From: Phycisphaerales bacterium
GTDB lineage: Bacteria; Planctomycetota; Phycisphaerae; Phycisphaerales; UBA1924
Direction: 5' to 3'
NCBI GenBank assembly: GCA_029213305.1
Contig: JARGPA010000004.1
Location: 102,010 to 166,009, forward strand
Length of the DNA: 64,000 nt
Shown here: positions 50,322-63,928 of the stretch, piece after piece
How positions within the stretch are numbered: the first letter of the stretch is position 1
Layout: every line of letters begins with the position of its first letter
Program-made: the position numbers and the translations under genes
Notes under the pieces: generated by a model
What the model was told of the DNA's origin: nothing
The model's input: the letters and a program-made list of their open reading frames with translations, nothing else
The model's database searches: none

Positions 50322-52040
50322 TTACGGGCAACCTGCAGAGAACTCTGAGAGGAATGCAGAAACATCGAAGAAGTTGAACTGGCCATCGCCGTTGAAGTCT
50401 GCAACGTTATCCATGTTGCCAAAAGCGGTGAGGTAAGCTGAAACATCGAAGAAGTTCAACTGGCCATCGCCGTTCAAGTCAGGTGGACATACAACTGGTG
50501 GAAGTGGTGAAAGGATCATACTTGCCAAGTAGCGTTGGATATTGTTTGTATTGGTGTCAGGAGAAACAATGATCAAGTATGCACCTGGATCTTCTGCATC
50601 ATAAACGATAGTTTCAGAACCACCAGTGCCAGTTGCATCAACTTCAGCAACTGGGTTAAACAAATCACTGAACGAGAAGATTTGGAGCTTCAAGTCGTGA
50701 ATAGCGTTGTAGTTGGTGTTTGATCCTGAGTTACATGATTGAGTTTGTGGGCCTTGCTGATATGTTCCAGCATTCGGTCCAACGACGAATGTGATCTTGG
50801 TACGATCAGTTACCGTTACGGTATAGAAGTCGACATCGCTGTTATCGTCGATGCTTGCTTCGTTGATATTAAAGAACCCTGAGTCAACATAAGTACCCAA
50901 ATCAGTAGCGGTTCCTAATGAGTTGTTGGGCTCTTGCGGGTCGCCGTAGTGGCGCTGCCCGTTTAGGATATCGTCAAGTTGTGGTCCAACATATGCTGTT
51001 GAAATGAATGGCTCCATCAACTTTGTTTGGTTTGCAGGGCAAACATGCTCCATACCAAGTCCGTGGCCATGCTCGTGAGAGATGACATTCCGTAAACGGA
51101 GTGAGTTGTTCGTAGTGTTGTTGTAGAAAGTATCGAACGCGTCGATAGCCATGTCGCCATCATTTGGGAAGAAGTTGTAAGCAAGAACTCCGCCGTTTCC
51201 ATCTGCTGGGTAGTTGAATGCCGCAATGCGTACATCACCGCGAGTTCCGACGATACCAACAGCGCCGTTCAGGTTTGAACCATCATCATTAGTTTCGTGA
51301 ATGTATGTGAGACCTGTAAGTTCTGCCCAACGATCAAAAACCTGCTCAAACAAGCCTTGCCATATTGCAGTACTTGCGTACCTTGAATCGAGCCAAGCAA
51401 AGAGTGTTGAGTTCCCTGAGCCCAAACCACTATTCGGTACGAAAGTTCCATCTGGAACGAATGAGTACGTGATAGTTGTTACGTCGCCTTGGCTTAAACC
51501 ATTGCCGTCAACTGCAGTACGTGACCAACGATTTCCTTGTTGGAATCGTGAGTCATCATTCTCCATTTCAACGAACTGGTAATCCAAAAGTTCGTTTACT
51601 GTGTAAGCGTACTTAGGATTTGTGTCAGGGGAAAAACACATGAACGGGACTTCTTTGCCTTCGTCCATCAATGTTGCGATGTTGTTTACAATATTGAGTT
51701 CGTGTTCTGCTAGTTCGTCGCGGACTCCGCCACCGAGGAGTATGTCTGCATACTCAAGTGCAGTGATATTGCGAGGCACATGTGAAAGATCGCGGCCTTC
51801 AAAGTTGCGAGTGAAACCATCAAGGTTTACCATTTCAGATCCGATTCCACCCTCTTTAGCGATTATCTTCTGATGATCTTCAGGAAGTGAACCGATCATT
51901 GTACGAGCAAGATCTTGCAACTCGAGTTCGTTGAGGCTGCCAACACCGGCAGGGTAGTTGTTGATTTGAGCACCTGTAGCGGCACCTGCAATCATGGTAA
52001 AAGTTGTACAAGCGGCGATAAGGACTGATTTGCGGTTCAT
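50322..52040 (-). CDS. secreted matrixin-type metalloprotease with dockerin-like C-terminus
   Basis: The 572-residue protein has a signal peptide (MNRKSVLIAACTTFTMIAGAATGAQ). The metzincin zinc site HEHGHGLGMEH (HExxHxxGxxH) is at residues 322-332, followed by a Met-turn-like LMEPF. A beta-sandwich-like domain (~390-500, DFYTVTVTDRTKITFVV; GAYLIIVSP) resembles pre-peptidase C-terminal domains. The C-terminus (~515-572) has two NGDGQ-(L/F)-NFFDVSA(Y/F)L repeats, a dockerin-like calcium-binding pair frequent in Phycisphaerae secreted proteins and ending in GCP. Likely an extracellular protease attached or sorted by this tail. AAGGGA precedes the ATG. Confidence 0.9.
   Translation of the reverse strand: MNRKSVLIAACTTFTMIAGAATGAQINNYPAGVGSLNELELQDLARTMIGSLPEDHQKIIAKEGGIGSEMVNLDGFTRNFEGRDLSHVPRNITALEYADILLGGGVRDELAEHELNIVNNIATLMDEGKEVPFMCFSPDTNPKYAYTVNELLDYQFVEMENDDSRFQQGNRWSRTAVDGNGLSQGDVTTITYSFVPDGTFVPNSGLGSGNSTLFAWLDSRYASTAIWQGLFEQVFDRWAELTGLTYIHETNDDGSNLNGAVGIVGTRGDVRIAAFNYPADGNGGVLAYNFFPNDGDMAIDAFDTFYNNTTNNSLRLRNVISHEHGHGLGMEHVCPANQTKLMEPFISTAYVGPQLDDILNGQRHYGDPQEPNNSLGTATDLGTYVDSGFFNINEASIDDNSDVDFYTVTVTDRTKITFVVGPNAGTYQQGPQTQSCNSGSNTNYNAIHDLKLQIFSFSDLFNPVAEVDATGTGGSETIVYDAEDPGAYLIIVSPDTNTNNIQRYLASMILSPLPPVVCPPDLNGDGQLNFFDVSAYLTAFGNMDNVADFNGDGQFNFFDVSAFLSEFSAGCP
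50361..50480 (-). repeat. near-identical 39-bp direct repeat in the dockerin-like tail
   Basis: Bases 50361-50399 and 50442-50480 differ at only two positions (both g/c changes) and are 81 bases (27 codons) apart. They encode the two NGDGQ.NFFDVSA repeats. The DNA-level identity exceeds what protein conservation needs, suggesting recent duplication or gene conversion between the repeats. Confidence 0.85.
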
Positions 52041-52389
52041 TGCATTCCCTTTTGATTGCACCACTCCTCATGAGTGATGATGTGATTTAGAAAAGTGTCG
52101 GCTGACACCCTATCTACGAGACCGAGCCGAAAATATAGATACGCCAAGAACAGGCGATCATTGACCCTTTAACAACACAGCTTCATCTGTTTAAAACCAC
52201 CAGTGCGATGATCTAAAATCAGAGCAAGCTCCGTTGCGTAAAATGATTGAAACCTGTAGAGAGACCCACAGGCATCCAGATACACCAATAAACCTCTGGC
52301 GCATGGAATACGACAATATTCTCTACGCAAAGAATATGCCTCAGATCCATTTGTACTCGATCTGGATCAAAATTCGAGCCGAAAACCGA
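52041..52389. other. intergenic region upstream of the matrixin gene
   Basis: About 350 bases between the matrixin start and the rpmE terminator. Short frames exist, but none shows an RBS or family similarity. It should contain the matrixin promoter; no clear -35/-10 pair was recognised. Confidence 0.4.
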
Positions 52390-53388: not shown

Positions 53389-54240
53389 TCAAATTTCCCG
53401 ACTCGGCCGAGGCGTGTAGTTGAGAAAGGTATCCGTTGCTTGCCACATGGATTCGAGTCGATCAATCCGATGACGCGCTTCTTCTCCGAGTTGATTCACA
53501 ACCTGGGCAACAAGCATTTCCGCAGCCATCACAGAAGGAATCGAACTATCAAATGGGCCTACAGCAGGAATCTTTAGCTCGCACCAGTTTTTAGTCAGTG
53601 CAGCAAGTGGCGAGAGCGGGCCGTCGGTAATCGCGACGATATTCACATCGAGTTCTGCGAGTGCTCTTGAGGTTGTGATCGAGTTTCTTCGATATCGTGC
53701 GAAATCAAACACCACAGCTGTATCTCCTTCACTGGCGCTACTTAACTCGCGTCCAGTGGAGTGCTCGACAACGAGGCGGACATCAGGACGGATCATCGAT
53801 AATCCACTGTGGAGGACATAAGCGCCCGCCATGGAAGTTTCGCCTGAGAGTATCCAAACATTCCTTGCTTGAGCGATGGGGGTTGCAAGAGCAATCAAGC
53901 GTTCCTGGGTAAGTGCGTCAAATGATTGGTGAATCGCTTCTTCGATGGCAGCCCAGACAGGTGGGGTAGAGCTTTCCTGCTGTCGAATTCGTTGACTTGG
54001 ACTTGATAGCTGAACTGATAACTGTTCGCGAATCCAACTTTGGAGATCTGTGTATCCTTCGAAACCAAGCTTGGTTGCGAATCTGACGATAGAAGGCCTG
54101 CTTGTGTTCGCTCGATCAGCTAGGTCCGATACTGTCCCAAATGCGAGTAATGTCGGATCCTTAAGCACCAACTCTGCGATCCTGCGCTCAGTTGGCGTCA
54201 GTCGTTCATTGATCGGTGCGATTAAATCTTGTATAGACAT
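53389..54240 (-). CDS. RpiR/MurR-family transcriptional regulator
   Basis: The 283-residue regulator has an N-terminal HTH_6 domain (LTPTERRIAELVLKDPTLLAFGTVSDLADRANTSRPSIVRFATKLGFEGYTDLQ in segments, residues ~14-68) and a C-terminal SIS domain (~125-250, ARNVWILSGETSMAGAYVL; GDTAVVFDFARYRRNSI; VNIVAITDG). RpiR proteins usually sense phosphosugars; here the divergent position relative to the aminomutase operon, across 102 bases, suggests that it controls amino-acid catabolism genes instead. The SIS domain may bind a pathway intermediate; this is inference. Confidence 0.9.
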   Translation of the reverse strand: MSIQDLIAPINERLTPTERRIAELVLKDPTLLAFGTVSDLADRANTSRPSIVRFATKLGFEGYTDLQSWIREQLSVQLSSPSQRIRQQESSTPPVWAAIEEAIHQSFDALTQERLIALATPIAQARNVWILSGETSMAGAYVLHSGLSMIRPDVRLVVEHSTGRELSSASEGDTAVVFDFARYRRNSITTSRALAELDVNIVAITDGPLSPLAALTKNWCELKIPAVGPFDSSIPSVMAAEMLVAQVVNQLGEEARHRIDRLESMWQATDTFLNYTPRPSREI

Positions 54241-54342
54241 ACTGGCTCTTAGGTGGTCAATGTGTTACAATCAGTTGTTGATAGTGTACGCCGCGTTACA
54301 AAGCGGATATGACCTTTGTCGTCATTTTTTGGAGATCAGTTG

Positions 54343-55770
54343 ATGCCTCAGTCTACGAAATATGTTCCAACAGATAAAGAACAAGCTTTTCACTCGACCG
54401 TCGAAGATATCGCACACAAGCGTGAGATCATTAATGGCCTTGCTCCGTTCTTCAAAGAATCCGCACCAGATGATCTCATGGGTCTCTACAGTTCAGATGA
54501 GCTTGTCCAACTGAGTGTGCTCAACAAGACTGATCGTGATGTCGAAAGTCGTATGCCAGTAAAGATCACGCGGCACTTTGCAGAGCTCGCAAGGACGAGT
54601 CCCGCGATCCAAAAACTGGTCAAAGCAAGTCCTGATGAGACACTCGATCTTGCTGGATCAGAAGATCCAGGCAATCAAATGGATTACTCCCCAGTAGAAG
54701 GGCTCCTTCACAAATACGAAATGGGTTTAATGTATGTTGTTTCAACATGCTCGGCGCATTGCCGTTTCTGTTATCGCGAAGAGCTAATCGCACGAAAAGA
54801 GATTGCTCGTGCTGATGGTACAGTTGCGAAGAAAGGGCTCGCAAAGATCCCTGAGATCGTTGGATACATCCATGAGTTTAACAATGCTGTCGCAACAAAC
54901 GGTGGGCGCCATCCAGTGTGTGGCCGAGAGAAACTACGCGAGATCCTCCTTTCAGGTGGAGATCCAATGGTTCTCAATAATGCAAAGCTTGCAGCATGGT
55001 TCTCGGCGCTTGCAGAAGCAGGTATCGAATCAATCCGAGTTGGTACGAAGGAAATGGCGTTCTATCCGAAGAGATTCGATGAAACATTCTTCGCGATGCT
55101 CGATGCATTCCATGAAGCGTACCCTGAAGTTGGTGTCCACTTTATGGTTCACTTTGAGCACCCGGACGAGTTCCTCGCTAAGGGTGATGACGGCGAATAT
55201 CTTCGTGATGACAAAGGGTTCTTTACATGGGTTCCAGATACTGGTAAAGCAATGAGAAACTTGCTCGAGCGAGGCTGGATCACTGTCGAGAACCAGACTC
55301 CAATCATCAAGGATATCAATAACGATCCTGACGCCCTTCGTATCATGCAGCGTGAAATGAAACGAGTTGGTGCAGACAATCACTACTTCTTCTGTGGCCG
55401 AGATATTGTTGCGTACAAAGCATTCAACATCCCAATCGAAGAGTCTTGGAGAATTCTCAATGAATCTCAAAAGGGACTTTCAGGAGTTGAAAACCATGCT
55501 CGTCTTTCAATCACGCATTACAAAGGTAAAACTGAAGTATGTGCTGTGACAAGTGAGCCGATCCCTGGACTTGCAGGGAGTGAAAATGGTGTAGTAATCT
55601 TCAAGCTGTTGAGGAACGCTGCTCAAGCACCAGATCGCGGTAAAGTATGTATCGTCGGCCGCAACCCAGATGCTGCATGGTTCGATGACTATGAGGATCG
55701 AGTTTTGTTCGATGAAGCTGGTTTGTTTGATTACTCACGAGTTAAAGAAGTCGCCGCAGAATCAGAGTGA
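54343..55770 (+). CDS. KamA-family radical-SAM 2,3-aminomutase-like enzyme
   Basis: The 475-residue protein has the radical-SAM cluster motif CSAHCRFC (Cys136, Cys140, Cys143), the MEYSPVEGLLHKYEMGLMYVVS-like lead-in (here QMDYSPVEG) and LLSGGDPMVL, all KamA-like. KamA enzymes use [4Fe-4S], SAM and PLP to move an amino group from C2 to C3. The lysine-enzyme PGGGGK motif is missing; HYKGKTEV seems to occupy its place, so a PLP lysine may remain while residues that hold lysine's side-chain amine are not evident. The natural substrate may therefore not be lysine. GGAG precedes the ATG at 54343. First gene of a four-gene operon. Confidence 0.82.
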   Translation: MPQSTKYVPTDKEQAFHSTVEDIAHKREIINGLAPFFKESAPDDLMGLYSSDELVQLSVLNKTDRDVESRMPVKITRHFAELARTSPAIQKLVKASPDETLDLAGSEDPGNQMDYSPVEGLLHKYEMGLMYVVSTCSAHCRFCYREELIARKEIARADGTVAKKGLAKIPEIVGYIHEFNNAVATNGGRHPVCGREKLREILLSGGDPMVLNNAKLAAWFSALAEAGIESIRVGTKEMAFYPKRFDETFFAMLDAFHEAYPEVGVHFMVHFEHPDEFLAKGDDGEYLRDDKGFFTWVPDTGKAMRNLLERGWITVENQTPIIKDINNDPDALRIMQREMKRVGADNHYFFCGRDIVAYKAFNIPIEESWRILNESQKGLSGVENHARLSITHYKGKTEVCAVTSEPIPGLAGSENGVVIFKLLRNAAQAPDRGKVCIVGRNPDAAWFDDYEDRVLFDEAGLFDYSRVKEVAAESE

Positions 55771-55777
55771 GCACAAA

Positions 55778-56488
55778 ATGATTAATAAACATGTATCAAG
55801 CGCCGCAGAAGCAGTGCGTGATGTGTTCGATGGTGCAACCGTCATGGTCAGTGGATTCGGTGAAGCCGGGAGCCCTATCGAGCTTATCCATGCTCTCATT
55901 GATCAAGGCGCGACGGATCTTACTGTTGTCAGTAACAATACTGGTAGTGGGGAAGTTGGTTTAGCAGCGTTACTTAAAGCAGGACGTGTATCCAAAGTAA
56001 TCTGCTCATTCCCAAGAACTGCAAACTCAACAGTGTTTCCGGATCTTTATCGAAGTGGTAAGACAGAACTTGAGCTTGTACCCCAAGGGACACTCGCTGA
56101 ACGAATCAGAGCTGGGGGAGCAGGTATCCCAGGGTTTTACACTCCTGCAGCTGTTGGAACTCCATTGGCAGATGGAAAAGAAAGCAGGCAGTTCGATGGG
56201 CAAGAATATATTCTTGAACACGGATTGAAAGCAGATTTCGCATTAATAAAAGGTCAAGTCGCAGATACGCATGGAAATGTGATTTACAACAAGACCGCGA
56301 GAAACTTTGGGCCTCCAATGGCAATGGCTGCGAATGTTTCAATAGTCCAAGCGATTCAGGTTGTTGAACCTGGAGAGATTGATCCCGAAGTTGTCGTAAC
56401 CCCGGGTATCTTCGTTGATCGAGTTGTCGAAATTGCAAATCCTGTTCATGAGTCAGTACTCGTTGCTGAAGGAGTTTCTTACCCATGA
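55778..56488 (+). CDS. 3-oxoacid CoA-transferase subunit A
   Basis: The 236-residue alpha subunit has the SCOT/AtoD/PcaI pattern: DGATVMVSGFGEAGSPIELIHAL, VSNNTGSG, KVICSFPR, ELVPQGTLAERIRAGGAGIPGFYTPA and VADTHGNVIY. With subunit B it moves CoA from a donor such as succinyl-CoA to a 3-oxoacid. The ATG at 55778 lies seven bases after the aminomutase stop; a frame opening at 55670 only extends into that gene. Overlaps subunit B by four bases. Confidence 0.92.
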   Translation: MINKHVSSAAEAVRDVFDGATVMVSGFGEAGSPIELIHALIDQGATDLTVVSNNTGSGEVGLAALLKAGRVSKVICSFPRTANSTVFPDLYRSGKTELELVPQGTLAERIRAGGAGIPGFYTPAAVGTPLADGKESRQFDGQEYILEHGLKADFALIKGQVADTHGNVIYNKTARNFGPPMAMAANVSIVQAIQVVEPGEIDPEVVVTPGIFVDRVVEIANPVHESVLVAEGVSYP

Positions 56489-57150
56489 GTGAGCAAACGC
56501 AAATCAGTGGTTGGACTCGTGAGGAGATGGCAAAGCGTCTTGCTCAAGATATCCATAATGGTTCCTATGTAAATCTTGGAATCGGGATTCCAGAACTTGT
56601 CGCAAAGTATGTTCCAGAAGGCCGTACTCTAATTTACCATACTGAAAATGGTTTACTTGGGATGGGGCCGTCACCTGAAACTGGTTCAGGTGATCCAGAG
56701 TTGATCAACGCAGGAAAACGACAAGTGACTGCAAATCCGGGCGCTGCATTTTTTCATCACGCAGACAGTTTCGCAATGATCCGTGGTGGGCACATCGATC
56801 TATGTGTATTGGGTGCAATGCAAGTCTCGAAAAACGGTGATCTCGCAAACTGGTCGACAGGTGCACCCGATGCAATACCAGCAGTCGGTGGTGCAATGGA
56901 CTTAGTCGCCGGCGTCAAATCTGTTTATGTCATCACCCAACATTGCACGAAGCACGGCGAGCCCAAACTTGTTGAATCATGCACTTTCCCACTGACAGGG
57001 TGCAAAGTTATTGATCGTATCTATACGGATCTTGCGGTAATCGATGTCACAGATAAAGGATTCCAACTAGTTGAGTTGAGTCCTGGGATTGACTTTGATT
57101 ATGTTCAATCAAAAACGGGTGCAGAAATACTACAGATACCAAATACATAA
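56485..57150 (+). CDS. 3-oxoacid CoA-transferase subunit B
   Basis: The 221-residue beta subunit carries the catalytic glutamate in TENGLLGMGP (Glu54), which forms the covalent glutamyl-CoA intermediate, plus NLGIGIPELVA and GGHIDLCVLGAMQVS. It is closest in pattern to ScoB/AtoA/PcaJ. It starts within the stop of subunit A and ends 13 bases before the aminotransferase, so all are one operon. Substrates in this class are acetoacetate, 3-oxoadipate and similar beta-keto acids; the particular one cannot be read here. Confidence 0.93.
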   Translation: MSEQTQISGWTREEMAKRLAQDIHNGSYVNLGIGIPELVAKYVPEGRTLIYHTENGLLGMGPSPETGSGDPELINAGKRQVTANPGAAFFHHADSFAMIRGGHIDLCVLGAMQVSKNGDLANWSTGAPDAIPAVGGAMDLVAGVKSVYVITQHCTKHGEPKLVESCTFPLTGCKVIDRIYTDLAVIDVTDKGFQLVELSPGIDFDYVQSKTGAEILQIPNT

Positions 57151-57163
57151 TGGGTTTCCAGTT

Positions 57164-58489
57164 ATGAATACGTCAACACAAACAAATAAGTGTGCTGAAC
57201 TGTACAAGAGAGCTCAGAAAGTTCTCCCAGGTGGTGTCAGCCGAAACGCGGTTCTTCGTGATCCTCATCCGTTATACGTTGATCACGCAGAGGGGTGCCG
57301 AATTGTGGATGTCGATGGAGTGTCGCGGATCGACTTTGCCAACAATATGGCGTCACTTATTCATGGGCATGCAGATCCAGATATGGTTCGTGTTGTAAGC
57401 GAACAAATCGCAAAGGGAACTGCATACAACATGGGGACTGAAGCAGAGATCCTTTACGCAGAACACCTGCTCTCCCGAAATGCAAGCTTTGAACAGTTGC
57501 GTTTTGTGAACTCAGGTACCGAAGCGTTGATGCTTGCGATTAAAGCTTCGAGAGCATATACCAATCGTCCAATGATCGCAAAAGCTGAAGGCGCTTATCA
57601 CGGTGCGTATGACTATGTCGAAATCAGTCAAACTCCTAAACCAGATGGCTGGGGAAATGCGGATATACCAAACCGTGTGCCGTTGGTTTCAGGTACTCCT
57701 GCGTCTGCGATTGATGATGTCGTAGTGTTCCCATTTAACAACATTGATAAGACAATTGCATTGCTTGATCAATATGCAGACAAGCTTGCGTGTGTTGTAT
57801 TCGATTTGATGCCTCATCGTGTAGGTCTTAATCCTGCTGATCCTGCGTTTGTCCGAGCAATCCGAGATTGGACAACCCAGAACAATGTCATGTTAGTACT
57901 CGATGAGGTTATTACCTTCCGTGCAGAGCACGGCGGACTCCAAGAACAGTACGGGATACATGCAGACCTGACGGCGCTTGGGAAAATGATCGGTGGCGGA
58001 TTCCCAATCGGAGCGACCGCTGGACGTGCAGATGTAATGGATGTTCTCAATCCACATTCAAAGCGTTATCTTTATCCTCACTCAGGTACATTCTCTGCGA
58101 ATCCAATAAGTATGGTTGCAGGTCATGTCGCAATGGAAAAGTTTGATCAAGCTTCAATAGAAGGGCTTAACCAACTAGCTCAAAGAGCAAAACTTGGTAT
58201 TCAAAAAGCTATCGAAGAGACAGGGATTGCCGCGAGTGTAACCGGCAGTGGCTCAATGTTTCGGGTGCATCTCAAAGAGAATGCGCCGCATAACTACCGC
58301 GAGGCATATTTGTCCCCTGATGAAGCGCGTCGACTAAAGTTATTACTTGATCATATGTTTGATGCAGGTTTTGTCTTGATCAATACATGCTCTGCAACAC
58401 TTTCAACTCCTATGACCGAAACTGAGATTGATGCTTTAGTCGCAGGGTATAAAAGCGGATTCGAGATGTTGAACTCCATCAGTTCATAA
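57164..58489 (+). CDS. class III aminotransferase, probably acting on a beta-amino acid
   Basis: The 441-residue PLP enzyme resembles glutamate-1-semialdehyde aminomutase (HemL) but is likely not HemL. It has LDEV with the pyridine-binding Asp (~247), the Schiff-base Lys274 in LTALGKMIGGGFPIGA, and RFVNSGTEALMLAIK. Near the N-terminus PGGVSR (residues 22-27) puts Arg where beta-phenylalanine aminotransferases have theirs (PGGNTR, from memory), a residue that binds the beta-amino acid carboxylate. The genomic position between CoA-transferase and thiolase fits conversion of a beta-amino acid to a beta-keto acid. Confidence 0.8.
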   Translation: MNTSTQTNKCAELYKRAQKVLPGGVSRNAVLRDPHPLYVDHAEGCRIVDVDGVSRIDFANNMASLIHGHADPDMVRVVSEQIAKGTAYNMGTEAEILYAEHLLSRNASFEQLRFVNSGTEALMLAIKASRAYTNRPMIAKAEGAYHGAYDYVEISQTPKPDGWGNADIPNRVPLVSGTPASAIDDVVVFPFNNIDKTIALLDQYADKLACVVFDLMPHRVGLNPADPAFVRAIRDWTTQNNVMLVLDEVITFRAEHGGLQEQYGIHADLTALGKMIGGGFPIGATAGRADVMDVLNPHSKRYLYPHSGTFSANPISMVAGHVAMEKFDQASIEGLNQLAQRAKLGIQKAIEETGIAASVTGSGSMFRVHLKENAPHNYREAYLSPDEARRLKLLLDHMFDAGFVLINTCSATLSTPMTETEIDALVAGYKSGFEMLNSISS

Positions 58490-58503
58490 ATCTCAACATC
58501 AGC

Positions 58504-59709
58504 TCAATCGCGTTCAAAGACAGTCGCAAGCCCTTGTCCTACACCTACACATAGAGATGCTAGTCCTCGTTTCGATTCTGAACGAACCATCTCATGTATG
58601 AGTGTAGTTGCGATACGTGCGCCGCTACATCCGAGTGGGTGCCCGATCGCGATGGCGCCGCCGTTCACGTTGAGCTTTGCTTGATCAATGTTTAGTTCAC
58701 GAGCACACGCAAGTGATTGTGCAGCAAATGCTTCGTTGAGTTCAATCAAATCAATATCATCGAGGGTGAGCTTTGCACGTTCAAGAGCTTTGCGGATTGC
58801 AGGTACTGGTCCAACTCCCATGTATGCTGGGTCCACCCCTGCAGAGGCGCTTGCGCCTATATATGCGATTGGAGTAAGTCCCAATTCCTTTGCGCGAGAT
58901 TCCTCAACAAGAAGGAGTGCTGCTGCTCCATCATTTACCCCAGAGGAGTTTCCTGCAGTAACAGTACCTTGTTCATCTTTAGCAAATACTGGTCGTAGTT
59001 TACCAAGTTTTTCAATTGTCATTTCAGGACGAGGATGCTCGTCAGTATCAACCAGTAGTGGATCAGATTTACGTTGGGGAATCGAAATAGGAACGATCTC
59101 GTTCTTAAAATATCCCTGTTCGTGCGCTTTTGCCCATTTTTGTTGACTTGACAATGCGAACTGATCTTGATCTTCGCGGGAGATATTGAATTTGCGAGCA
59201 ACATTCTCCGCAGTTTCACCCATTGGGAATGGGTGATGGAGCTTGGATAGCTTTGGATTGATAAAGCGCCAGCCTATTGAAGTGTCATATATTTCTTGGT
59301 TTCGACCAAACGCAGATTCGGATTTGCTTAACACATATGGTGCTCTACTCATCGATTCTACACCGCCGGCAATAAACACATCTCCATGATCTGCTTCAAT
59401 CATTCGAGCAGCGATATTGATCGCATCTAAACCTGATGCGCAGAGACGGTTTACAGTAGATCCAGGGACGGATTCAGGTAGTCCTGCGAGCAATGCAGCC
59501 ATGCGTGCGACATTGCGATTGTCTTCTCCGGATTGATTCGCAGCTCCAAAGTAAACATCGTCTACCAAACTTGGATCCACGTTAGTCTGATCAATTACGG
59601 ATCGGATGACATGGGCAGCTAAATCATCGGGACGGATGGAAGAAAGTGAACCACCATATCGACCGATTGGGGTACGCGTTGCACAGATAACAGCAGCTCT
59701 TCTTTTCAT
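58504..59709 (-). CDS. thiolase, beta-ketoadipyl-CoA thiolase-like
   Basis: The 401-residue thiolase has catalytic Cys90 (NRLCASGLDA), the His of GGAIAIGHPLGCSGAR and the second Cys in CVGVGQG. The segments YFGAANQSGEDNRNVARMAALLAGLP and GGVESMSRAP...IGWRFINP are strongly reminiscent of PcaF/PaaJ, which split 3-oxoadipyl-CoA to acetyl-CoA and succinyl-CoA, more than of acetoacetyl-CoA thiolases. It is convergent with the aminotransferase (14-base gap), so it is in the cluster but not in the operon. The ATG at 59709 is preferred over a TTG at 59727. Confidence 0.9.
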   Translation of the reverse strand: MKRRAAVICATRTPIGRYGGSLSSIRPDDLAAHVIRSVIDQTNVDPSLVDDVYFGAANQSGEDNRNVARMAALLAGLPESVPGSTVNRLCASGLDAINIAARMIEADHGDVFIAGGVESMSRAPYVLSKSESAFGRNQEIYDTSIGWRFINPKLSKLHHPFPMGETAENVARKFNISREDQDQFALSSQQKWAKAHEQGYFKNEIVPISIPQRKSDPLLVDTDEHPRPEMTIEKLGKLRPVFAKDEQGTVTAGNSSGVNDGAAALLLVEESRAKELGLTPIAYIGASASAGVDPAYMGVGPVPAIRKALERAKLTLDDIDLIELNEAFAAQSLACARELNIDQAKLNVNGGAIAIGHPLGCSGARIATTLIHEMVRSESKRGLASLCVGVGQGLATVFERD

Positions 59710-59859: not shown

Positions 59860-61476
59860 TCATAGTAATGATTCAGGATTCTGTAGTGATCCAACAATCT
59901 CAGCAAGCGCTAGAGCGGCTGTCGCACCATCGACAACGCGATGATCACATGCAAGACTTAAAGGCATCACCTTCCCGACCATTGCTTGGCCATCACGAAC
60001 GACTACGCCGTCGTATGCTTTGCCTACTGCTAAGATCGCAACTTCAGGAGCATTAATCACTGGGGTTGCAAACTTTCCTGCATGTGATCCAACATTGCTG
60101 ATTGTGAAAGTTGAGCCCATGAGTTGGTCACGAGGGATTGAACGATCGCGAGCACTCGCAGCGATTCCTGCGATTGATTGTGCGAGTTCAACAATGTTCA
60201 TTCGATCTGCATCTCGAATTACTGGGACCATCAATCCACTCTCAGTATCAGTTGCGATACCAAGATTCACTGCAGCATACTGAACAATTTGTTCATTCGC
60301 TTCATCAACGATCCCATTCATCGCTCCGAAATGGCCTGCGAGTGCTTTCGAGACGGCGGCACAAACGAAAGGTAAGAAGCTGATTTTCACACCCGTTTGT
60401 GCAGTCACTTCTTTACGCAATGCGTCGATCGCAGTGACATCTGCTTCGTCCATCACAGTAAAGTGAACAGCGGTATTTACAGACTCACGCAATCTGTTTG
60501 CGATCGTTCTGCGAATCCCCTTGAATGGAATATTTCCTTGAGCGTGTCCTGGTTGTACAACGCTCTGTTGAGCAGGAGATGGAATCGGGCGATACGCACT
60601 TGGGCCTTGGTATCCAGGAGCATAAGGCAAACCCTGTGGAGTTTGCGGCTGCATTGGTTGAGGATACCCATAGCCTGGTGGAGGCGGAGGTGGTGCATAG
60701 CCATAGGGGTACGCAGGTGGATAAGGATACGCTGGTGGTGGAGGTGCATACCCATACGCTGGTTGTTGTGGATACACAGGAGGTTGTTGCGTGAACTGAG
60801 CAGGTTGTTGCTGTTGTGGGGAATAGCTAGGAGCAACAGGTGTTGTTGGAAGATTCAAAGGTCTGCGTACCTCTGAAGGGCGAGCAGCAGTTTGAGCTAC
60901 TGGGGTTTCAGGTGATGGAGTGCTCGGAGTTTGAGCAGGTGCAGGAGCAGGTGTGGATCTTGCAGGAGCAGATCCATCTGCAACATTGCGTACATCTTTC
61001 GATGTGACTCGTCCACCAATTCCAGTTCCAACAACCTGATTAATGTCAACTCCTGCATCTCTTGCTTGACGACGAACAGCAGGAGAAGCAAGCGCTTTAC
61101 CATCAGTTGAAGTCATTCCTGGAGTATGGTCCGACATCTGTCCAACTACTGATCCTTGGTCCTCTGGACGATCTGTTTCAGGTGTAGGAGTAGTCTCCGG
61201 TGCAGGCGTGTCATTTGCATCGCTGACATATGTCACAAATGGAGCGCCAACTTTGATGATGTCGCCGTCATTGCCGTGAAGGGTTTTAATAGTCCCGGCG
61301 CGAGGTGAAGGAACTTCAACAAGTGCCTTATCCGTTTCCATCTCTGCGATTACTTCGAGCTCACCAACGGTATCGCCTTCTTTGACGGTCCATTTAATGA
61401 GTTCTGCTTCTTCGAGCCCTTCTCCAAGGTCGGGGAGAATGAAAATGTTCGGATCTGATGATACTTTGCCTGCCAT
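59860..61476 (-). CDS. pdhC: pyruvate dehydrogenase E2 (dihydrolipoamide acetyltransferase)
   Basis: The 538-residue protein has one lipoyl domain with the lipoylated lysine in EMETDKALVEVPSP (~residue 50), a subunit-binding domain (ASPAVRRQARDAGVDINQVVGTGIGGRVTSKDV in segments, ~130-165) and a C-terminal acyltransferase domain with DHRVVDG near the end. Between the last two lies an unusual linker of about 140 residues rich in Pro, Tyr and Gln (YAPPPPAYPYPPAYPYGYA). It forms the core of the complex producing acetyl-CoA. GAGGA precedes the ATG. Last gene of the operon; no E3 (lpd) follows. Confidence 0.93.
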   Translation of the reverse strand: MAGKVSSDPNIFILPDLGEGLEEAELIKWTVKEGDTVGELEVIAEMETDKALVEVPSPRAGTIKTLHGNDGDIIKVGAPFVTYVSDANDTPAPETTPTPETDRPEDQGSVVGQMSDHTPGMTSTDGKALASPAVRRQARDAGVDINQVVGTGIGGRVTSKDVRNVADGSAPARSTPAPAPAQTPSTPSPETPVAQTAARPSEVRRPLNLPTTPVAPSYSPQQQQPAQFTQQPPVYPQQPAYGYAPPPPAYPYPPAYPYGYAPPPPPPGYGYPQPMQPQTPQGLPYAPGYQGPSAYRPIPSPAQQSVVQPGHAQGNIPFKGIRRTIANRLRESVNTAVHFTVMDEADVTAIDALRKEVTAQTGVKISFLPFVCAAVSKALAGHFGAMNGIVDEANEQIVQYAAVNLGIATDTESGLMVPVIRDADRMNIVELAQSIAGIAASARDRSIPRDQLMGSTFTISNVGSHAGKFATPVINAPEVAILAVGKAYDGVVVRDGQAMVGKVMPLSLACDHRVVDGATAALALAEIVGSLQNPESLL

Positions 61477-61547
61477 ATGTTTATTCCTCTACGCCGCAGT
61501 TGCGGTGGGGGGATTCAGTTTTTATTACTCAACTATTCCGATTTATA

Positions 61548-62522
61548 TCAGTACGCTAAACACTCAGTGATTCCCTTGAGAATCCGAGGGGATTCTGGGA
61601 GGTACTCATTTTCAAGCTTGTAATAAGGCATGATCGTATCGAAACCCGTTACGCGTTGGACAGGAGCTTCCAAGTGCAAGAAACACTCTTCCATAACTCT
61701 TGCAGCGATTTCTGCACCCATGCCACCAGTGAGAGGAGCTTCATGGACAATCACACAGCGTCCAGTCTTTGAGACTGATTCTGCAACAGTGTCCATGTCA
61801 AACGGGTAAATAGATCTAAGATCAATCAACTCGACGGAGACATCTTCAGGTAAGTTGTCGATTGCTTCGAGTGCTTGGAAAACGCTCGCACCCCAAGTCA
61901 CGATTGTGAGATCCTCGCCTTCGGATACGACTTTTGCTTCTCCGATTGGAATCTCATAATAATCATCAGGAACATCTTCTTTGAATGTGCGATAGACGCG
62001 TTTCGGTTCAAAGAAAATTACAGGATCAGGATCTTTGATCGCACTGTTGAGCAATCCCTTTGCATCGTAAGGCGTGCAAGGCATGACAACTTTAACACCT
62101 GGAGAATGAGCATAAATCACTTCTGGGGAGTCGGAATGGAGTTCAGGTGCATGGATACCGCCTCCAACTGGAACTCGCACTGTCATTGGTACAGTGACGG
62201 CACTGCGTGTGCGTGTTCGCATACGAGCAGCATGGTTTACTAACTGGTCGTATGCAGGTCCAAGGAACCCTTCGAACTGAATCTCAGGGATTGATTTCAT
62301 TCCTGCAATTGCAAGACCGATTGCTGTACCCATGATCCCAGATTCATCAAGGGGTGTATCTACTACACGATCTTTGCCATGAGTTGCTTGGAGACCATCG
62401 GTTGCGCGGAAGACGCCGCCGTTGAGTCCAATGTCTTCGCCGAGCAAGATCACATCTGGATCTCGAGCGAGTGCTTGATCGAGGGTCGAAGTGATTGCTC
62501 CGACAAGTGTTTGTTCTGCCAT
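61548..62522 (-). CDS. pdhB: pyruvate dehydrogenase E1 component, beta subunit
   Basis: The 324-residue beta chain of the heterotetrameric alpha2beta2 E1 has the pattern MAEQTLVGAITSTLDQALARDPDVILLGEDIGLNGGVFRAT, DTPLDESGIMGTAIGLA and the C-terminal VTGFDTIMPYYKLENEYLP. It helps form the thiamine-diphosphate site with the alpha chain. GGAG lies nine bases before the ATG. It is separated from E1alpha by the small unknown gene and from E2 by 71 bases. Confidence 0.96.
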   Translation of the reverse strand: MAEQTLVGAITSTLDQALARDPDVILLGEDIGLNGGVFRATDGLQATHGKDRVVDTPLDESGIMGTAIGLAIAGMKSIPEIQFEGFLGPAYDQLVNHAARMRTRTRSAVTVPMTVRVPVGGGIHAPELHSDSPEVIYAHSPGVKVVMPCTPYDAKGLLNSAIKDPDPVIFFEPKRVYRTFKEDVPDDYYEIPIGEAKVVSEGEDLTIVTWGASVFQALEAIDNLPEDVSVELIDLRSIYPFDMDTVAESVSKTGRCVIVHEAPLTGGMGAEIAARVMEECFLHLEAPVQRVTGFDTIMPYYKLENEYLPESPRILKGITECLAY

Positions 62523-62537
62523 TAGAAAGGCTCCGTA

Positions 62538-62798
62538 TTATCCAGTTGCAGCCGCCGCAGCGGCCATCTGGTCTGTGTGATTTTGATCTTCAGCTGCGAG
62601 TATCGCATCGAGACTGTTTGGCATTGCCGCGTTCACAATGTCTACAACACTCGCAGCGTCCATATTGACTCGTAATCGAGAACTGCGTCCACTGATTTCG
62701 ACGGTACATTTGTTAATCCCTTTGGGGAGAATCGCTTTCACATACACCGCGTTGATGTATTGATCTTTCCCTTTGTGATCAACAAGTTTGACGAGCAT
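62538..62798 (-). CDS. small protein of unknown function inside the PDH operon
   Basis: The 86-residue protein starts MLVKLVDHKGKDQYINAVYVKAIL and carries a compact beta-rich N-terminal half followed by a helix and an Ala-rich tail. Its pattern is vaguely like FlbD-type small proteins (residues 1-60), but I cannot assign a family. Its ATG overlaps the stop of pdhA by one base and pdhB follows 15 bases later, so it is translated as part of the operon. A role in assembling or regulating the E1 complex is possible but unsupported by any motif. Confidence 0.7.
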   Translation of the reverse strand: MLVKLVDHKGKDQYINAVYVKAILPKGINKCTVEISGRSSRLRVNMDAASVVDIVNAAMPNSLDAILAAEDQNHTDQMAAAAAATG

Positions 62799-63928
62799 TA
62801 GTGTGTCTCCACTGCCTGTGCTTTAAGTCCAATTTGCGATGGATTGCGGCCGATCGAAGTTGTTCGCATCGTGTCCCTTTGGATCTGCAAATCACGAGGA
62901 AGGTCCGCGTACATGTCGTTAAAGAACTCAGCGCTTGTCGGAGTAGTTACCGAGATTGCAGCATCGAGAACTTCTTTCACGATTGTCTTCGCACGACTCT
63001 CAAGTTCTTCTTGCTTTGTGTCGTTCCAGATGTCGATTGATTCCATGTATTTGCGTGTGCGAATCAACGGATCTTTTTCGACCCATGCATCAACTTCTGC
63101 TTGATCACGATAGCGACGAGCATCGTCAGCTGTTGTGTGGTCTGCTAAGCGATAAGTTACGCCTTCGATGAATGATGGGCCGCCACCTTCGATTGCACGC
63201 GTGCGTGCATCTTGAGTTGCTTTGTAGACCGCAAAGATATCGTTGCCGTCAACTTGAATCGTCGGCATGTCATACGCAATTGCTTTTTGAGCAACAGTCG
63301 CGGAGTTCATTTGCTGTTCACGAGGAAGCGAGATTGCCCATGAGTTGTTCTGACAGTAGAAGATCGTCGGAACTTGCATAACTGAAGCGAAGTTCATCGC
63401 GTTATGGAAGTCGCCCTCTGATGTCGCACCATCACCAAAGTAAGTGATGACTGCTCGATCTGCTTCTTTGCGTTGCTTCATTGCCCACGCAATTCCAGTT
63501 GCGTGAAGCATGTGCGTTCCAATGGGAACACTCAATGGGGTAATGTTCACATCTTCAGGGAACTTTGAACCTCGCTCGTCGCCCATCCAGTATTGGAGAA
63601 CATAATGCATCGGCATCCCATGCATGAAGAGGGCAGCGTTCTCACGATATGAAGGGACGACCCAGTCGTTGCCCTTCACCATTGCGAGTGCTGAACCGAC
63701 TGCGTTTGCTTCTTGACCCTTGTTCTGGGGGTAGGTGCCCATTCGTCCAGATCGTTGGAGCTTGAATGCGATCTCATCAAGTTCACGACAGATTCGCATC
63801 TGCTCATAAAGATGAATGACTTGATCATTGCTAAGCGTGTTCTTAGCGAGTTTTTTATCGAGTTTTCCATCCTCATCGAGGATTTGGAGATGTTCGATTT
63901 TGGCTTCAAATACAGTATGGTGAGGCAT
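62798..63928 (-). CDS. pdhA: pyruvate dehydrogenase E1 component, alpha subunit
   Basis: The 376-residue alpha chain has the thiamine-diphosphate motif GDGATSEGDFHNAMNFA (GDG...N), HATGIAWAMKQRKEADR and the regulatory-loop region YRLADHTTADDA. With the beta chain it decarboxylates pyruvate and passes acetyl to E2. AGGAG precedes the ATG. It is the first gene of the operon running E1alpha-unknown-E1beta-E2; the operon promoter should lie beyond 63928, with only 72 bases visible in the window. Confidence 0.95.
   Translation of the reverse strand: MPHHTVFEAKIEHLQILDEDGKLDKKLAKNTLSNDQVIHLYEQMRICRELDEIAFKLQRSGRMGTYPQNKGQEANAVGSALAMVKGNDWVVPSYRENAALFMHGMPMHYVLQYWMGDERGSKFPEDVNITPLSVPIGTHMLHATGIAWAMKQRKEADRAVITYFGDGATSEGDFHNAMNFASVMQVPTIFYCQNNSWAISLPREQQMNSATVAQKAIAYDMPTIQVDGNDIFAVYKATQDARTRAIEGGGPSFIEGVTYRLADHTTADDARRYRDQAEVDAWVEKDPLIRTRKYMESIDIWNDTKQEELESRAKTIVKEVLDAAISVTTPTSAEFFNDMYADLPRDLQIQRDTMRTTSIGRNPSQIGLKAQAVETH

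Follow-up and report, generated by a model that had tools for sequence, protein, structure and literature searches.

Which amino acid, if any, is broken down by a cluster of six genes found in a member of the Phycisphaerales (Planctomycetota)? The genes occupy positions 53,389 to 59,709 of a 64,000-nucleotide stretch of contig JARGPA010000004.1 (assembly GCA_029213305.1, forward-strand positions 102,010 to 166,009), the whole of which is called the window here; the source genome measures 2.93 Mb and is 92.3% complete. An initial annotation of this DNA saw in the cluster a route that leads from an alpha-amino acid, through its beta-isomer, to coenzyme A (CoA) esters, with alpha-aminoadipate, lysine or leucine as possible substrates. 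We find that the six genes are conserved together as a module, more than a chance grouping, and we tentatively read its function as the degradation, via the beta-isomer, of an acidic alpha-amino acid, L-2-aminoadipate derived from lysine being the likeliest. More hesitantly still, we propose that this is a new pathway in which a radical S-adenosylmethionine (SAM) 2-aminoadipate 2,3-aminomutase, the first of its kind, would connect lysine with the end of the beta-ketoadipate pathway without passing through 2-oxoadipate or glutaryl-CoA. Every enzyme activity in the module is one that we infer from sequence. The elements of the cluster are the following (PLP, pyridoxal 5'-phosphate).

53389-54240, minus strand: RpiR/MurR-type regulator with HTH_6 and SIS domains (Pfam HTH_6 1.3e-15, SIS 9.4e-9)
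54264-54300, no strand: conserved intergenic motif, a possible operator, in the divergent promoter between the RpiR gene and the KamA-like gene
54343-55770, plus strand: KamA-like protein of the radical-SAM, PLP type, predicted to be a 2,3-aminomutase acting on an acidic amino acid
55778-56488, plus strand: 3-oxoacid CoA-transferase subunit A, PcaI-like (TIGR02429, 345.4 bits, cut-off 128.5)
56485-57150, plus strand: 3-oxoacid CoA-transferase subunit B, PcaJ-like (TIGR02428, 302.7 bits, cut-off 243.55)
57164-58489, plus strand: class III aminotransferase (Pfam Aminotran_3), predicted beta-transaminase, with PGGVSR (R27)
58504-59709, minus strand: PcaF/PaaJ-like thiolase with the covering-loop motif TSIGWRF, convergent with the aminotransferase gene

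The open reading frame (ORF) list, together with family and Pfam searches, places all six genes where the initial annotation had them. The best start of the KamA-like gene is the ATG at 54343, with GGAG ahead of it; the mechanical ORF begins earlier, at TTG 54316, from which the residues of this protein are numbered below, and thiolase residue R154, the equivalent of PcaF R148, is counted in the ORF from 59727. The genes had also been described as standing in plausible chemical order. All the enzymes are indeed present, but the physical order, in which the aminomutase, CoA-transferase A, CoA-transferase B and aminotransferase genes follow one another on the plus strand and meet a convergent thiolase gene on the opposite strand, is not strictly the chemical one.

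Conservation was followed through the best 80 of 159 relatives (the named loci), each count being restricted to loci whose contig reaches far enough for the gene in question. The CoA-transferase A gene follows the aminomutase gene in 80/80 of these loci, the subunit B gene comes next in 72/72 and the transaminase gene after it in 68/68. An RpiR gene is divergent from the aminomutase gene in 51 of the 69 loci with room upstream, and a thiolase gene lies within 3 kb in 50 of the 66 that have the transaminase and more than 1.3 kb of sequence past it. The non-conservation of these neighbours in related genomes, on which the initial annotation would have abandoned the pathway, is thus the opposite of what is seen. 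Clustering of the ORFs of the 80 loci brought out nothing past the six genes as a further conserved neighbour, using a simple ORF caller that dropped some true genes overlapped by chance ORFs.

Matches to the KamA-like protein occur in 64 of 151 relatives, 49 of them at E <1e-100 and the other 15 weak and to other KamA-type proteins. The module is scattered more widely, since a strong match is found in 23 of 392 genomes spread over the phylum, belonging to eight families. Eleven loci from this phylum-wide set were inspected, of which ten keep the aminomutase, both CoA-transferase subunits and the transaminase in that order and one (L155) has the aminomutase and regulator only; the thiolase gene adjoins the other cluster genes in one of the eleven. 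The records of L086 and L088 bear the titles Spartobacteria and Chthoniobacterales. In the most distant clusters, L125-L127, all six functions are retained in another arrangement: the aminomutase gene is divergent from the genes for regulator, CoA-transferase, thiolase and transaminase, which share one direction, and the transaminase is a different class III enzyme. Their transaminase is 30-34% identical to that of the window and carries PGGNTR, so that one beta-type transaminase has apparently been swapped for another. Next to the cluster in L127, at about 9.6-16 kb, a gene group that includes a xanthine-dehydrogenase-like gene looks by eye like the E. coli ygeW-ygeY-yqeA purine-degradation genes.

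The description of the KamA-like protein as a radical-SAM 2,3-aminomutase holds for its cysteines, arginine, PLP lysine and fold, but its scores fall below the cut-off of every curated 2,3-aminomutase family. Against NCBIfam models with their own cut-offs it reaches 81.9 bits for the broad KamA subfamily TIGR00238 (cut-off 199.2), 77.7 for arginine 2,3-aminomutase (600), 71.9 for glutamate 2,3-aminomutase TIGR04368 (650), 71.3 for EpmB (369.3) and 62.6 for lysine 2,3-aminomutase (525.4), and no Pfam family matches it in a Pfam search of the window proteins. The nearest structure by sequence is 2a5h, a lysine 2,3-aminomutase (LAM), which is also the nearest in fold (Foldseek E 4.6e-12) when a low-confidence structure model is used (mean predicted local distance difference test score, pLDDT, 62.4; predicted template modelling score, pTM, 0.70; residues 111-175, 359-370 and 398-484 below 50). 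This model supports the KamA fold, not active-site detail.

Residues were compared in an alignment of 27 KamA-type proteins. The cluster-binding cysteines C145, C149 and C152 (CxxxCxxC) are kept, as are R154 and K405, the counterparts of LAM R134 and K337. In LAM, R134 binds the carboxylate and K337 the PLP, and D293 and D330 bind the lysine side chain; in the window protein D293 is replaced by R362 and D330 by S398. The D293 column holds Asp in 8 of the 27 proteins, among them two lysine enzymes, the arginine enzyme, an AblA-like enzyme and EpmB, and Arg in the other 19, namely all six members of the window family and 13 from planctomycetes, Rhodococcus, Mycetohabitans, Amycolatopsis and Sinorhizobium, so that the arginine is not unique to the window family. 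Within that family (113 members in total) CGRD is found in 108 of 108 readable members. An arginine in the side-chain pocket suits a carboxylate, and we predict that the protein acts on an acidic amino acid, shifting its amino group from C2 to C3.

In a quick FastTree of the same 27 proteins with midpoint rooting, the window family and the other arginine-bearers do not form one clade; since they are split in this tree, whose support values were not read, no single arginine class by descent is claimed. The other proteins with Arg at this position (L114-L122 and L132-L135) are encoded in planctomycetes and on plasmids of Rhodococcus, Mycetohabitans, Amycolatopsis and Sinorhizobium, some of them near ATP-grasp or peptide-synthetase-like genes. 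L134, on a plasmid of Amycolatopsis sp. AA4, has its arginine-bearing aminomutase near a Glu/Leu/Phe/Val dehydrogenase, two CoA ester lyases, two MaoC dehydratases, an aminotransferase and a CoA-transferase, and is possibly another catabolic beta-amino-acid route.

The downstream enzymes are of the kind expected from the initial annotation, which had named a two-subunit 3-oxoacid CoA-transferase and a PcaF-like thiolase. Both transferase subunits pass the curated PcaI/ScoA and PcaJ/ScoB subfamily cut-offs. Subunit A shares 60% identity with a Sinorhizobium PcaI-like protein encoded beside pcaF and 40% with E. coli AtoD; subunit B is 56% identical to the PcaJ-like neighbour of Sinorhizobium pcaF and 44% to AtoA, and is less telling because it is also 53% identical to a Rhizobium B subunit encoded beside an acetyl-CoA acetyltransferase. 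By these sequence comparisons the transferase is nearer PcaIJ than AtoDA. Subunit B has an ENG motif, which we take to be that of the catalytic Glu. The best PDB matches of the thiolase are 8gqh, 1ulq and 6pca, and its loop aligns as TSIGWR with T143-G146 and R148 of PcaF. The GWR loop motif occurs in 54 of 55 cluster thiolases and in 3/3 PcaF/PaaJ references, against 0/3 acetoacetyl-CoA thiolases. A structural report places the long covering loop of PcaF (T143-G146, R148) along the acyl tunnel and considers it suited to 3-oxoadipyl-CoA (PMC7337054). Since D293 and D330 are both replaced in the aminomutase, the CoA-transferase is PcaIJ-like and the arginine of the PcaF loop is kept, the module as a whole points to a dicarboxylic substrate.

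For the class III aminotransferase the beta-amino-acid PGGxxR motif was correctly recognized; it reads PGGVSR here and is found in 70 of 71 cluster transaminases. In the PDB the enzyme is best matched by 6k8h (396 bits), described as the beta-amino-acid omega-transaminase of Sphaerobacter thermophilus (StoTA); R27 aligns with the arginine given there as carboxylate-binding, R36, and the active-site K and T are conserved. We predict on this basis that the window enzyme is a beta-amino-acid transaminase. A second arginine, R32, was considered as a grip on the far carboxylate and dropped as evidence, being kept in only 62 of the 71.

Put together, these assignments suggest the following course. 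A dehydrogenase encoded in 58 of 62 carriers of the cluster would convert 2-aminoadipate semialdehyde to 2-aminoadipate, whose amino group the KamA-like enzyme would move from C2 to C3 to give beta-aminoadipate; in this step Arg362, which replaces the lysine-binding Asp293, would contact the side-chain carboxylate. The class III transaminase would remove the beta-amino group, leaving 3-oxoadipate, which the PcaIJ-like transferase would turn into 3-oxoadipyl-CoA, perhaps at the expense of succinyl-CoA. The PcaF-like thiolase would then split this product into acetyl-CoA and succinyl-CoA, returning any succinyl-CoA spent as the CoA donor, and the RpiR-type protein may sense a metabolite of the pathway and control the divergent promoter.

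The supply of 2-aminoadipate can be followed through genes elsewhere in the genomes. An aminoadipate-semialdehyde-dehydrogenase-like gene, counted at E <= 1e-120, is present in 34 of the 37 carriers in a set of 101 relatives (36 of the 101 have one over the NCBIfam cut-off) and in 24 of 26 further or repeated carriers (20 of 26 over the cut-off); the four misses among the 62 distinct carriers are G005, G020, G111 and G136. In L153 and L158, both of one genus, the gene convergent with the transaminase gene scores 736.2 and 737.7 against an L-piperidine-6-carboxylate dehydrogenase cut-off of 730, and its products match antiquitin structures; in a third genome of this genus the contig stops at the cluster and the dehydrogenase copy is on another contig. 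Lysine 6-transaminase is over its cut-off in G031 and G100 and nearly so in G104, that is in 3 of the 101 genomes, all of them carriers (Fisher 0.047); nothing useful was seen in its surroundings. Around the semialdehyde dehydrogenase gene of eight carriers no lysine gene was recognized by eye, no family search having been made there. The source genome has no match to PF02515, a result that carries no information here. It does have a 2-oxoglutarate dehydrogenase, by which the idea of the module as the filler of a gap in the citric acid cycle was ruled out.

A number of these and other observations weigh against 2-aminoadipate. Adjacency of the semialdehyde dehydrogenase gene to the cluster is confined to two genomes of one genus, and the gene is also present in 45 of the 64 non-carriers of the relatives set; its enrichment in carriers (one-sided Fisher 0.009, not corrected for kinship) is confounded by kinship. 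Two of the carriers without it, G111 and G136, are 98% complete. The copy of the source genome scores 703 bits, under the cut-off of 730 like most f1 copies, and no lysine gene was recognized by eye among its neighbours. Neither a lysine 6-transaminase over the cut-off nor any match to PF16653, the saccharopine/lysine-dehydrogenase model, was found in the source genome, so that no supply of aminoadipate semialdehyde is apparent there; PF16653 itself occurs in 61 of 101 relatives with no visible link to carriage of the cluster. In the aminomutase, R362 and S398 both lie in low-confidence parts of the structure model, so their placing depends on the alignment, and, Arg being longer than Asp, a shorter acid, glutamate for instance, may fit the pocket. 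The thiolase reaches 586.5 bits with the pcaF model TIGR02430, 11 under the cut-off of 597, and hexanoyl- and octanoyl-CoA also bind in the PcaF tunnel (PMC7337054). The StoTA substrates characterized in the accessible part of its source are aromatic and aliphatic beta-amino acids and one gamma-amino acid, none of them dicarboxylic.

These difficulties make it necessary to weigh other explanations, of which the most radical is that the aminotransferase is HemL, an enzyme of heme synthesis, and the cluster a chance grouping. The initial annotation had named proof of this identity as fatal to its pathway. The aminotransferase is the best match of its own genome to the hemL model TIGR00713, where no other protein exceeds the cut-off, but it scores 328.5 bits against a cut-off of 527.3. 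Among the 101 relatives, 23 have HemL over the cut-off, 20 have glutamyl-tRNA reductase over its own and 19 have both; G111 is the one genome among the 37 carriers in which either exceeds its cut-off. In G111, which has HemL, the reductase and the cluster, the cluster transaminase is a gene separate from HemL. The source genome has no match to glutamyl-tRNA reductase, so HemL would receive no substrate by the glutamyl-tRNA route, and although a metagenome-assembled genome that is 92.3% complete may miss one gene, its entire lineage agrees. The low hemL score and the pairing of HemL with the reductase in other genomes led us to reject the identity, and the reading as a whole is hardly credible. 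As to heme synthesis itself, the source genome has no HemL or 5-aminolevulinate synthase over the cut-off and no glutamyl-tRNA reductase match, and most near relatives are alike; 5-aminolevulinate synthase is over its cut-off in none of the 101 relatives, where matches of about 240 bits could be any alpha-oxoamine synthase.

The remaining alternatives concern the substrate. Of the three originally listed, alpha-aminoadipate by way of 3-oxoadipate fits best, and lysine and leucine are disfavoured; the main rival is one absent from that list, glutamate, which we rank behind 2-aminoadipate and regard as rather unlikely. Here a glutamate 2,3-aminomutase would form beta-glutamate, to be taken through 3-oxoglutarate and 3-oxoglutaryl-CoA to acetyl-CoA and malonyl-CoA, or the module could use up, or in reverse make, beta-glutamate as an osmolyte. 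The arginine at the D293 position would suit its carboxylate as well, and the glutamate 2,3-aminomutase characterized by Ruzicka and Frey in 2007 reportedly has a basic residue, Lys, at the same position and Asn at that of D330. Glutamate is shorter than 2-aminoadipate and always available, and since it is in every cell, the absence of the semialdehyde dehydrogenase from G111 and G136 poses no problem for it. Against this stand the 71.9 bits with the glutamate 2,3-aminomutase model, far from the cut-off of 650, the likeness of the thiolase and CoA-transferase to enzymes for the C6 acid 3-oxoadipate, and the dehydrogenase adjoining the cluster in L153 and L158, which would be left unexplained; moreover, because the source genome has 2-oxoglutarate dehydrogenase, glutamate already has an ordinary route. 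Leucine by the route of Poston, or another neutral amino acid, would go via its beta-isomer to acetyl-CoA and an acyl-CoA such as isobutyryl-CoA. StoTA, the nearest characterized transaminase, accepts beta-leucine, beta-phenylalanine, beta-homoalanine and others, and L109 has, by eye, a Glu/Leu/Phe/Val-dehydrogenase-like gene some 3 kb past the transaminase; but the invariant Arg362 in the side-chain pocket column and the PcaF-type loop with its arginine in nearly all cluster thiolases disfavour a neutral substrate, which we consider improbable. Lysine itself, converted through beta-lysine to 3-oxo-6-aminohexanoyl-CoA much as in Pseudomonas B4 without the N-acetylation, is more improbable again. 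One source of database names labels the KamA-like enzyme lysine 2,3-aminomutase and its fold is nearest to that enzyme, but replacement of both lysine-binding aspartates, in the same alignment in which the lysine, arginine, AblA-like and EpmB enzymes have Asp at D293, disfavours it as substrate.

The regulator likely controls the divergent operon. Between its gene and that of the aminomutase lies the motif GTTRCA, about 20 bases, TGTACN, 3-5 bases, GTTACA, whose conservation is plain. In a sample made up of the window and 40 of 53 available loci, both halves are present in 29 of 41 intergenic stretches, compared with a mean of 0.0/41 in 200 mononucleotide shuffles, which is not an unbiased test because the pattern was picked after viewing the alignment. 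The motif is a possible RpiR operator.

Outside the module, genes for the E2, E1-beta and E1-alpha components of a pyruvate-dehydrogenase-type complex follow beyond the thiolase (59860-63928, minus strand); the E2 linker is very Pro- and Tyr-rich, and among the named loci this neighbourhood is shared by L032 only. On the other side, 50322-52064 encodes a large protein that looks secreted; it has HExxHxxGxxH and, at the C-terminus, an NGDGxFNxFDVSAF repeat, and judged by eye it is a metalloprotease bearing a repeat of planctomycete type.

In the open-licence literature, covered by titles, the beginnings of abstracts and term counts, we found no description of such a pathway, none naming beta-aminoadipate among the metabolites of one and none joining aminoadipate, oxoadipate, lysine degradation and an aminomutase. 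If the 2-aminoadipate reading is true, the KamA fold gains a new class of substrate, recognizable by Arg in place of Asp293, amino-acid breakdown is linked to the enzymes of the beta-ketoadipate pathway, and an enzyme that shifts the amino group of 2-aminoadipate becomes available. A 2020 paper states that enzymes deaminating lysine, beta-lysine or 2-aminoadipate towards bio-based adipic acid were not known (PMC7241714). Should the substrate be glutamate, the module would lead both to the osmolyte beta-glutamate and away from it.

Known systems share parts of this module. Lysine 2,3-aminomutase (KamA/AblA, 2a5h) has the same fold, CxxxCxxC motif, carboxylate-binding Arg and PLP Lys, and differs in the two positions now held by Arg and Ser and in the 62.6 bits, against 525.4, that the module enzyme reaches with its model. 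The glutamate 2,3-aminomutases (Eam and IdnL4) are reported, for Eam, to have a basic residue where the lysine enzymes have Asp, and are set apart by the score of 71.9 bits against 650 and by the catabolic neighbours of the module enzyme. IdnL4, of incednine synthesis, was assigned by gene disruption, and in vitro activity was not seen (PMC11284099). StoTA has in R36 the counterpart of R27 and shares the active-site K and T; as noted above, no dicarboxylic compound is among the substrates given for it in the accessible part of its source. In the aerobic beta-lysine catabolism of Pseudomonas B4, reportedly described by Barker, N6-acetyl-beta-lysine is said to undergo beta-transamination, CoA transfer and thiolysis, in the same order as the chemistry proposed here, but the beta-lysine there is acetylated and the module's aminomutase has both lysine-binding aspartates replaced. 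In its last two steps (PcaIJ and PcaF) the beta-ketoadipate pathway has in common with the module a two-subunit 3-oxoacid CoA-transferase and a thiolase with the TxIGWRF loop, the module's thiolase standing just under the pcaF cut-off; its 3-oxoadipate comes from aromatic ring cleavage, whereas here it would come by way of the aminomutase and transaminase. The module would combine a known chemical logic with a new aminomutase family and, probably, a new substrate.

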